Positions 21,126 to 58,075 of a stretch of DNA of 64,000 nt are shown here, in pieces. A program made the position numbers and the translations under genes. The DNA is from a virus, in IMG/VR virus record IMGVR_UViG_3300044712_001255, positions 186,001 to 250,000 of that record. One strand, written 5' to 3'. The notes under the pieces were generated by a model, which was not told where the DNA came from, made no database searches, and worked only from the letters and a program-made list of their open reading frames with translations. Every line of letters starts with the position of its first letter. Position 1 is the first letter of the stretch.

Positions 21126-21319
21126 GTGTTGTATCTACGGATGTGGCATATTGAGTATACAAAGTAATGCCTATGTTTCACAACGTCATCCAATATAATG
21201 GCATGAATACGTTCTTTTTCAACACATACGCTGAGCACAAGACACCATCGTAAGCCAACTTCCATTACGTCTCCTGGAAAAAGTCCCATTGCCGCTATCA
21301 ACATTTCATCATCATTCAT
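21122..21319 (-). CDS. PGD-family protein
   Basis: 65 residues; L-F-P-G-D at 13-17 and C-L-V-L-S-V. ATGA overlap at its end with the next gene. Confidence 0.8.
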   Translation of the reverse strand: MNDDEMLIAAMGLFPGDVMEVGLRWCLVLSVCVEKERIHAIILDDVVKHRHYFVYSICHIRRYNT

Positions 21320-30510: not shown

Positions 30511-30587
30511 GAGGTACAGTGGGAATCGAACCCACGAACGCTGTAGCCCTTGCAAACTACCGTCAATGGCGTCCACCACCAGGCACC
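30511..30587 (-). tRNA. tRNA-like gene, isotype unclear
   Basis: Normal length. T arm GTGGG-TTCGATT-CCCAC and D arm GGTG-GTGGA-CGCC are good, but acceptor GGTGCCT pairs with TGTACC only partly and the anticodon region has no standard 5-bp stem with 7-nt loop. Its loop includes TTTGCAA (TGC or GCA). Degenerate or unusually folded. Confidence 0.45.
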
Positions 30588-30913
30588 AAATAATTCGAAA
30601 CCAGTATCGAAGTTGGTCTACCCTTGGTTGTACAAAATAGCGACGAGTGACCCGCAGATTCTAACATGCAGAAACATCCGAAAACAAGCTGGATCGAAGT
30701 CGCTCGTCAGCAGGTTGGAAAGGTCATGAGCCTTTTGGGCGCCCCATTTGCGCACCCAACCCAAAAACGTTACTGACACCTAGTGCACAGCGTTGTTCAC
30801 GTTTGATTTACAAATGTCCACAAGCCTGTCGACCTGACACCTGGACCCTAAGCGTCGTCATCAATTTTTGTTTTTTCTGTTTCGTGACATCGACGAGTTC
30901 ATCGCTCGTCGAC
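30588..30913 (-). other. non-coding spacer
   Basis: No gene is seen in this 326-base stretch. It holds a T-rich run (ATTTTTGTTTTTTCTG near 30863-30878) and a GACGAGTTCATCGCTCGTC palindromic region at its right end. Confidence 0.35.
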
Positions 30914-46859: not shown

Positions 46860-47555
46860 ATGGCACGATGGTTCATTGCAATACTGTTCGCAATAGTAAG
46901 TTGCGCATGTGGTCCTGCCGAACCGCCCACAGAATGCAGGCTTCCAGATTCACTTGCAACGACTTCACAGTATCCATACACTGTGAGGATCTCAGCGCGA
47001 CACGCAAACGGTAAGTCTGATCGTTGCGTTGGCGTCATCATCAGCCAGAAAACGGTGCTTACTACTGGGCATTGCGTGAATACGGCTGTGAAATGGACGA
47101 TTAGATCTATGACTGGCGAAGCTTTGACGACTTCCACGGACGCCATTGCTATGTCACCATTGACTATACCCAACAGCGATATTATACCCGATGTCGCTGA
47201 CGTCGGATTGATTTTTGTTGAGACTTTTGCGAAACTGATAGCGTATCCAGAACTTGATGCCAATTCAGCTGAAAATGCAAGCGCTGAGATTGTTGACACG
47301 AACAATATGTCGCATCCAGTGACGCTATACTCTGGCACTGAGTATTCTTATCATGATGGCGCGAGTTTTGTGATCTTTGAGTGGGATTACTTTGCCGATA
47401 AGGTCACTGTTCCTGGCGATTCAGGAGGTCCCGTATTTGCACGAGATTCTCATCGCCTACTTGGTATCACTCATGGTCTTGGTCGAGATAGGTGCATGTC
47501 GTACATCACTCGTCTTGACAAGGTGTTGCCCTGGATCAAGGCGAACATGCGCTAA
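46860..47555 (+). CDS. trypsin-like serine protease, exported
   Basis: 231 residues. A signal segment (about 1-14) ends at V-S-C-A-C-G, possibly a lipobox. The chymotrypsin-fold triad is visible: His 71 in L-T-T-G-H-C, Asp 114 in V-A-D-V-G-L and Ser 188 in P-G-D-S-G-G-P. A protease exported by a phage is unusual; it may act on the host envelope or rival phages. Promoter GTGTCG, 17 nt, TATACT, six bases. Confidence 0.88.
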   Translation: MARWFIAILFAIVSCACGPAEPPTECRLPDSLATTSQYPYTVRISARHANGKSDRCVGVIISQKTVLTTGHCVNTAVKWTIRSMTGEALTTSTDAIAMSPLTIPNSDIIPDVADVGLIFVETFAKLIAYPELDANSAENASAEIVDTNNMSHPVTLYSGTEYSYHDGASFVIFEWDYFADKVTVPGDSGGPVFARDSHRLLGITHGLGRDRCMSYITRLDKVLPWIKANMR

Positions 47556-57193: not shown

Positions 57194-57367
57194 ATGCACG
57201 GCAAACACTACTACCACTTCACTGTCGAAGGCACCTACATGGGCAAGAAGACGACGCTCTTCATCAACGCCACGTCTCCTCTCCACGCCATGAAAGCATG
57301 GTGCCGCAAGATGAAAGCAAACATCGAACTCGTCGCGTTCAGCTACGTCAACGTGGACGGCGAGTGA
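57194..57367 (+). CDS. short hypothetical protein
   Basis: 57 residues, beta-alpha-beta (Y-Y-H-F-T-V ... H-A-M-K-A-W). Similar in style to 58114. Promoter GTGAAG (inside the previous gene), 17 nt, TATAAC, six bases. Confidence 0.62.
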   Translation: MHGKHYYHFTVEGTYMGKKTTLFINATSPLHAMKAWCRKMKANIELVAFSYVNVDGE

Positions 57368-57392
57368 CAGAGACTCTTCCTTAGCTTATACT
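57364..57392 (+). promoter_or_regulatory. promoter of tRNA-like gene 1
   Basis: -35 GTGACA (over the previous stop), 17 nt, -10 TATACT (57387-57392). Start of transcription would fall near 57399, about 22 bases before the RNA. Confidence 0.6.
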
Positions 57393-57420
57393 GATCTCAG
57401 GTAACGGAAACAAAAACAAC

Positions 57421-57523
57421 GGCCTGCGGGTGTTGGTGGAATCTCTGCTGCAGAGGAGATGAAACCACGGAAGCATATGGCGTCTATGACGACAAGGTTT
57501 AGGTTCAAATCCTGAGCGGGTCA
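57421..57523 (+). tRNA. oversized tRNA-like gene 1 (103 nt)
   Basis: Acceptor GGCCTGC/GCGGGTC (7 bp) and T arm TTAGG-TTCAAAT-CCTGA are sound. The D region starts TTGGTGGAAT like Leu tRNAs, but the D loop appears to hold an extra CTCTGC..GCAGAG hairpin, and no standard anticodon arm follows. A GTC-TAT-GAC mini-stem sits where a variable arm would be. CCA is not encoded. Confidence 0.5.
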
Positions 57524-57525
57524 CT

Positions 57526-57554
57526 GTGAAGATATGATCTTCCAAGGTTATACT
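57526..57554 (+). promoter_or_regulatory. promoter of tRNA-like genes 2 and 3
   Basis: -35 GTGAAG, 17 nt, -10 TATACT (57549-57554). Confidence 0.6.
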
Positions 57555-57578
57555 CTTCTTAGATACGGAAACAAACAT

Positions 57579-57717
57579 AGTCTGTTGGTGTGGATGTTCT
57601 CCGACGCTGGAGCTTGCTCCAGCATAGGGAATACACGGTCAACACACAGCGTTGAAGGCGCAAGCGCTTTCATTGAAGGCGCTGAGTCGCTAGGTTCAAA
57701 CCCTGCACAGACTACCA
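57579..57717 (+). tRNA. oversized tRNA-like gene 2 (139 nt)
   Basis: Perfect acceptor AGTCTGT/ACAGACT, then A and an encoded CCA; T arm CTAGG-TTCAAAC-CCTGC. Between them lie 104 bases with a GCTGGAG-CTTG-CTCCAGC hairpin, outer GTGT/ACAC pairing and a second CAGCG..CGCTG hairpin. It shares TTGGTG-GGAT with gene 1. Not a normal tRNA; perhaps an inserted or split form, or a tRNA mimic. Confidence 0.5.
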
Positions 57718-57718
57718 T

Positions 57719-57793
57719 GCCCTGGAACGCCTCTGGAGGTGGACGGGAAGTGATATCACCCGAACGAATGAAGTTCGAATCTTCACTGGGGCA
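57719..57793 (+). tRNA. tRNA-like gene 3 (75 nt)
   Basis: It starts one base after the CCA of gene 2. Acceptor GCCCTGG/CTGGGGC, D arm CGCC-TCTGGA-GGTG and T arm TGAAG-TTCGAAT-CTTCA are good. The anticodon arm is CGGG..CCCG around an 11-base AAGTGATATCA, so the anticodon is unclear (GAT possible with a distorted stem). Confidence 0.55.
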
Positions 57794-57832
57794 CTGAGTG
57801 ACAACAGACCTCCACTGAGGTACAACTGGACC

Positions 57833-58075
57833 ATGGCAAACACCTCCTACCGAGTCGAGCTCTTCAAGATCAATCCCAACGCCCAGGAGAATGACGTCTG
57901 CGGCAACGTGACCACCTCCACGTTCTCCACCCTCGAGGCTGCTCATGACTGGTTCGAGTTCTTCAAGGCTCAGTGTGTCCACGCTGACGACACTGTGGAG
58001 CTCCTCCGGGCCGAGCACGCCTCGGACGGCAGTGACGACTTGGTTGACCTCCAGGCGATTTCCTACTACCCCTGA
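57833..58075 (+). CDS. hypothetical protein
   Basis: 80 residues; Y-R-V-E-L-F, then S-T-L-E-A-A-H-D-W-F, resembling 58114. Promoter GTGACA, 17 nt, TACAAC, six bases. Confidence 0.68.
   Translation: MANTSYRVELFKINPNAQENDVCGNVTTSTFSTLEAAHDWFEFFKAQCVHADDTVELLRAEHASDGSDDLVDLQAISYYP

Follow-up and report, generated by a model that had tools for sequence, protein, structure and literature searches.

RNA C of bacteriophage T4 (rnaC, also called species 1 RNA) is a 139 nt RNA encoded on the complementary strand of NC_000866 at 70908-71046. Its role has been described as unknown (PMC3014915) and Northern blots have shown it to be expressed late (PMC9697503). We found that its 3′ end contains a T-arm (CCGGG-UUCGAAU-CCCGG) adjoining an acceptor-like stem, with a variable-type hairpin (10 bp) and a giant non-tRNA middle arm upstream of the T-arm. 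RNA C is present in approximately 700 phage records. Among eleven homologues the T-stem is paired in 98% of cells and the variable-type hairpin in 94%; of 22 pairs tested, 10 show a change in both partners (0 of 500 shuffles reach that number), and within the variable-type hairpin 7 of 10 pairs do so. In Yersinia phage TG1 the acceptor of RNA C pairs along all 7 bp, and most homologues keep two U-U mismatches (a U-U/U-U internal loop) in the acceptor-like stem. The 3′ tRNA-like domain is conserved and the middle evolves freely. T-even phages reportedly possess 'transfer RNA-like molecules' (Moen et al. 1978, as cited in a review) and the tRNA likeness of RNA C may therefore have been noted previously. 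In two Enterobacter phages the 3′ tRNA-like domain occupies a slot between tRNA-Trp and tRNA-Gly.

Another related system is that of tmRNA and other RNAs with a tRNA-like domain, in which the acceptor and T-arm are kept, the D and anticodon arms are reduced or replaced, and tRNA enzymes carry out maturation. Phage tRNAs themselves have been proposed to mutate their anticodon loops against nucleases (PMC10264068, van den Berg 2023); more generally, tRNA genes of phages have been proposed or shown to counter tRNA-directed defences, and in some of them the anticodon loop is altered (PMC10264068; retron evasion, PMC11555353).

The stretch of DNA analysed here (64,000 nucleotides, the window) runs from base 186001 to base 250000 of a virus record that is 324,468 bp long. 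Judged by its gene content, which includes GroEL, a MoxR-like ATPase, a UV-damage endonuclease, tmRNA and 48 tRNAs, the source is a huge bacteriophage; we found no near relatives of it in the phage collection or in IMG/VR, as searched with very near records possibly withheld. Three tRNA-like RNAs are arranged head to tail at window positions 57421-57792 on the plus strand. Their sequences show that each carries the 3′ half of a tRNA, that is, a T-arm stacked on a 7-bp acceptor. Element 1 (57421-57523, 103 nt) pairs GGCCUGC with GCGGGUC in the acceptor and has the T-arm UUAGG-UUCAAAU-CCUGA. Its middle consists of an enlarged D region and a hairpin, GGCGU-CUAUG-ACGAC, whose loop is too short to be an anticodon loop; AAGGU, a canonical variable loop of 5 nt, comes next. 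The 3′ half of element 1 shares a 24-nt match with the 3′ half of a tRNA-Arg at another fetched locus (L031; local blastn/nhmmer), and this match suggests a register for the middle.

Element 2 (57579-57714) is a class-II-type cloverleaf of 136 nt, or 139 nt with the CCA encoded at 57715-57717. Its acceptor, AGUCUGU/ACAGACU, is Watson-Crick throughout, and its T-arm, CUAGG-UUCAAAC-CCUGC, has one C-C mismatch. In tRNA numbering the order is U8-G9, a 4-bp D-stem, an arm in the anticodon position, a 9-bp variable arm, the T-arm, the acceptor, A73 and CCA; the D-stem closes a 37-nt loop with hairpins of its own. The arm in the anticodon position (UCAAC-ACACAGC-GUUGA) has 5 bp and a 7-nt loop with C33, and this loop holds no sensible anticodon and has odd bases at 37 and 38. 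Element 3 (57719-57792) is of normal tRNA length at 74 nt, with acceptor GCCCUGG/CUGGGGC, T-arm UGAAG-UUCGAAU-CUUCA, a D-arm of 5 bp with a 4-nt loop (CGCCU-CUGG-AGGUG) and an odd anticodon arm in which a 4-bp stem closes an 11-nt loop.

The preliminary description had claimed well-paired acceptor and T arms in all three RNAs, lengths of 103 and 139 nt for two of them, one encoded CCA and abnormal middles, and each of these claims agrees with the anatomy above. Acceptors are paired at 7 of 7 positions in all three, with G-U pairs rather than mismatches at the weak spots, and T-arms at 5 of 5 in two and 4 of 5 in element 2; the TTCRA T-arm loop is common to all three. No element has a canonical anticodon arm (5 bp, 7-nt loop, U33), element 2 coming nearest in stem and loop size only. 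The encoded CCA is confined to element 2 among the three, and it is absent from all 35 tRNA modules that were scored in this phage's tRNA cluster.

We scanned the window for modules with a TTCRA T-arm of at least 4 pairs and a fully paired acceptor (7/7, of which 5 or more Watson-Crick), within a total of about 60-150 nt, and found four: the three elements and an ordinary tRNA-Met. First-order Markov sequence leads one to expect about 0.17 modules per 64 kb on both strands, and three were observed within 375 nt; the observation is therefore real. Unconstrained folding gives a four-armed cloverleaf for each of elements 1, 2 and 3. Standard tools do not see these RNAs: ARAGORN called no tRNA at any of them, and a covariance search with Rfam RF00005 gave nothing above the 29-bit cut-off, the best partial match scoring 12.5 bits. 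The standard cloverleaf that would have spoken against the preliminary description was thus not obtained. An Rfam snoRNA match at the elements (14.8 bits, E 3.6) fell short of the cut-off of 35, and we dismissed it as chance.

We favor the possibility, at a probability of roughly one in two, that elements 1-3 are stable, tRNA-like RNAs with no part in decoding, matured by tRNA enzymes and acting as protein-binding mimics or decoys. The preliminary description had already suggested tRNA mimicry; the acceptor and T arms, which are intact, the missing canonical anticodon arm and the parallel with RNA C all lend it support. In this scenario host RNase P, RNase Z or exonucleases, together with the CCA-adding enzyme, would trim the elements into stable RNAs. 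These would keep the acceptor, T-arm and elbow, which are the grip points of tRNA-handling proteins, and would have given up a usable anticodon, so that they would serve as mimics or decoys and not as translation adaptors. The proteins soaked up may include tRNA-directed defence nucleases or other tRNA-binding factors. A decoy role is possible; if the elements are defence decoys, the target enzyme should read the acceptor, T-arm and elbow and not the anticodon.

The elements lie within an array (37090-59606, plus strand) whose short leaderless genes number at least 24, and almost all products of these genes are orphans without a family match. Each array gene has its own promoter, with the start arranged as GTG(A)xx, a 16-17-nt spacer, TATAMY, 6-7 nt and ATG, and the -35 often overlaps the stop codon of the gene upstream. 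This architecture leads us to infer an early region devoted to host takeover. The preliminary description had assigned all three RNAs to the same type of promoter, and this holds for elements 1 (57364-57392, GTGACA-N17-TATACT) and 2 (57526-57554, GTGAAG-N17-TATACT), whose promoters share the architecture of the array genes with a spacer of exactly 17 nt; at element 1, the TGA within GTGACA is the stop codon of the gene upstream. It does not hold for element 3: a single base separates its start from the CCA of element 2, and it must therefore be co-transcribed with element 2. Tandem spacing of 1 nt is typical of processed tRNA operons. The presumed 5′ leader of element 1 (57399-57420, plus strand; start of transcription inferred from the -10 spacing of the leaderless genes) ends in ACGGAAACAAAAACAAC, and ACGGAAACAAA is common to the leaders of elements 1 and 2. 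The elements are not leaders of the flanking genes, since these own separate promoters; the neighbouring protein (57833-58072) has no relatives that we could find. Array-like start motifs also occur in other IMG/VR contigs, and the array includes a predicted secreted or lipoprotein trypsin-like protease at 46860-47552, plus strand (Pfam Trypsin, E 6.8e-13).

The main rival to the mimic reading, and one that we consider rather unlikely, is that the elements are decaying tRNA genes whose D and anticodon arms have drifted and whose T-arm and acceptor are not yet lost. Consistent with decay, the whole-RNA folds of elements 1 and 3 are little better than shuffled sequence (z of -1.6 and -1.0), and the exact middles of these two elements are uncertain for that reason. 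The extra hairpins of element 2, on the other hand, are far better than shuffles, which argues against decay: its whole-RNA fold has a z of -3.1 (0 of 200 shuffles as good), and only 0 of 300 and 3 of 300 shuffles fold as well as its D-arm and variable hairpins, respectively. Element 2 is the only one in which extra hairpins beat shuffles. Decay would also be in keeping with the failure of all searches for homologues. No homologue of elements 1-3 was found in the phage, viral-contig and fetched-locus searches: (i) blastn of the whole three-element region against phages gave no match; (ii) an exact search of viral contigs with the 3′ end of element 1 gave none; (iii) local blastn/nhmmer against all fetched loci returned T-arm matches only, apart from the tRNA-Arg match of element 1; and (iv) of 113 stretches in viral contigs with the leader pattern TATACT-N8,13-ACGGAAACAA, only the element locus itself had a credible acceptor/T-arm and an array promoter. 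Because no homologue was found to show purifying selection, decay remains the main rival. Other degenerate-looking tRNA-like stretches in the same genome also favor decay, for example at record positions ~258398-258582 and at window positions 30511-30592 on the minus strand, the latter combining a perfect T-arm (GTGGG-TTCGATT-CCCAC) with a damaged acceptor and an anticodon region like that of Ala(UGC) (no ARAGORN match; a T-arm-only partial of 13.8 bits with the Rfam tRNA model). Against decay, the three neighbours have two intact, correctly spaced promoters, fully paired acceptors with G-U pairs in place of mismatches, and T-arms paired at 5/5, 5/5 and 4/5, beside middles that are wholly remodelled; random loss should not spare the same half in all three.

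It is improbable, in our estimation, that the elements are decoding tRNAs with strongly non-canonical arms that the models miss and with anticodon loops altered to evade anticodon nucleases. Such evasion has been proposed for phage tRNAs (PMC10264068), and element 2 does have an arm of exactly 5 bp and 7 nt in the anticodon position. This arm, however, lacks U33 and a sensible anticodon and is odd at 37/38, the loop of element 1 is shortened and that of element 3 is 11 nt. C33 is found in several of the phage's canonical tRNAs, which is a point in favor of odd decoding tRNAs, and loss of U33 alone is for that reason no proof of lost decoding. Against it, the phage tRNAs already serve all amino acids. 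The record holds 48 tRNAs above the Rfam threshold, nearly all of them clustered beyond the window, between 257.9 and 283.3 kb of the record, and they cover the full amino-acid set; with some 48 tRNAs elsewhere, the elements are not needed for decoding.

U33 is nearly universal in tRNAs. The C33 tRNAs of this phage are Lys UUU, Pro GGG, Thr UGU and Val GAC (record 259165, 271723, 274669 and 280444; loci L024 and L025), similar ones occur in two tRNA-rich contigs (G008 and G012), and C33 may be linked to escape from anticodon nucleases. Within the same cluster, a tRNA-Leu(CAA)-like gene (record 259857-259962; L024 9857-9962) has an anticodon arm, ATAGG-TTCAAAT-CCTAT, that resembles a T-arm.

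Related records offer the odd-decoding reading further support, in that they hold tRNAs with remodelled D-arms and normal anticodon arms. A search with the array motif found records that included G008 and G012, and a scan of G008, G012, G005, G009 and G000 yielded about 25 modules missed by the tRNA model, of which the credible ones nearly all combine a remodelled D-arm with an intact anticodon arm. Examples are a tRNA-Lys(UUU) of 96 nt and a tRNA-Lys(CUU) of 85 nt in G012, each with a hairpin within the D-loop; G004, G005 and G009 have a tRNA-Ile(UAU) whose D-loop is of the mini type. The tRNAs of this kind (G004, G005, G008, G009 and G012) are like the elements in their D-loop hairpins or mini D-loops and in being invisible or nearly so to the standard model; unlike the elements, which have lost it, almost all keep the 5-bp/7-nt anticodon arm. 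The nearest parallel among the scanned records is an isolated pair in G008 (C1:20802-20895 and 21172-21272, minus strand), far from that phage's tRNA cluster. One member is Ser(GCU)-like and has G33; the other, an RNA of 101 nt, carries a long insert within its anticodon arm. Separately, a tRNA-like gene at L039 7334-7409 (minus-strand scan numbering) has an anticodon-arm-like hairpin, CGGGT-CTTCTAA-GCCTG, seemingly ahead of a D-arm-like stretch, and is possibly permuted. We also came across bacterial class A RNase P RNA genes, above threshold, in G012 (C1:37474-37761, minus strand; L174 17474-17761; 166.9 bits) and G008 (C1:82201-82407, plus strand; L210; 118.5 bits), both in or beside the tRNA clusters of these tRNA-rich viral contigs; the window's own record gave no match to this model. 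A literature search found no paper on phage-encoded RNase P RNA, which would be notable.

That the elements are intron-containing or permuted tRNA genes, spliced to normal tRNAs, is very improbable. Two of the three do exceed tRNA length, and the earlier suggestion of tRNAs with inserts is borne out to the extent that the class-II cloverleaf of element 2 has a D-loop of 37 nt together with a large variable arm. It fails in that removing the hairpins by hand yields no normal anticodon loop and that element 3 is equally odd and insert-free. Self-splicing introns are far larger than inserts of 30-62 nt, and the inserts are thus far too small to be such introns. That the pairing arose by chance in intergenic or coding sequence is hardly credible. 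In its favor, an 87-codon ORF (57534-57797) overlaps elements 2 and 3; against it, this ORF lacks the array start signal and starts within the element 2 promoter, and the module count in these 375 nt far exceeds the 0.17 expected per 64 kb.

Returning to the mimic reading, how do the elements compare with the systems outlined at the outset? Like tmRNA and other RNAs with a tRNA-like domain, they keep the acceptor and T-arm, with D and anticodon arms reduced or replaced. A tmRNA identity was rejected, however, as the tmRNA model gave no match at the three elements and the phage encodes its tmRNA elsewhere. The defence-resistant phage tRNAs (PMC10264068, PMC11555353) are decoding cloverleafs, unlike the elements, which lack a usable anticodon arm. 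RNA C of T4 is the closest match in anatomy, and on the mimic reading the elements would work as it does. It is not a sequence homologue: a covariance model made with 8 homologues of RNA C, which scores T4 itself at 159.7, aligned with the T-arm alone of elements 1-3 (at most 5.1 bits, filters off). Both are phage small RNAs with a T-arm whose loop has 7 nt (TTCGAAT in RNA C), an acceptor-like end stem, a variable-type hairpin and a giant middle arm; the full anatomy is matched by element 2, which is also similar in size to the 139 nt of RNA C, and elements 1 and 3 match in part only. RNA C differs in sitting within a tRNA cluster, in its late expression and, in most phages, in the conserved U-U/U-U internal loop of its acceptor-like stem.

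Phage tRNA research centres on decoding tRNAs, and RNAs of the kind proposed here escape standard tRNA finders. If RNAs that keep only the features read by nucleases, RNase P, the CCA enzyme or EF-Tu do exist, they would constitute a new tool for counter-defence or host takeover. A more tentative proposal, possible and well short of probable, is that T4 and the unrelated 324-kb phage have converged on one class of RNA, tRNA-like but non-decoding, with the 3′ half of a tRNA retained and its anticodon half exchanged, and that these RNAs serve as decoys or ligands of tRNA-binding host defence or translation factors. The comparison places RNA C in a testable frame and, if such a convergent class is real, RNA C would gain a function.
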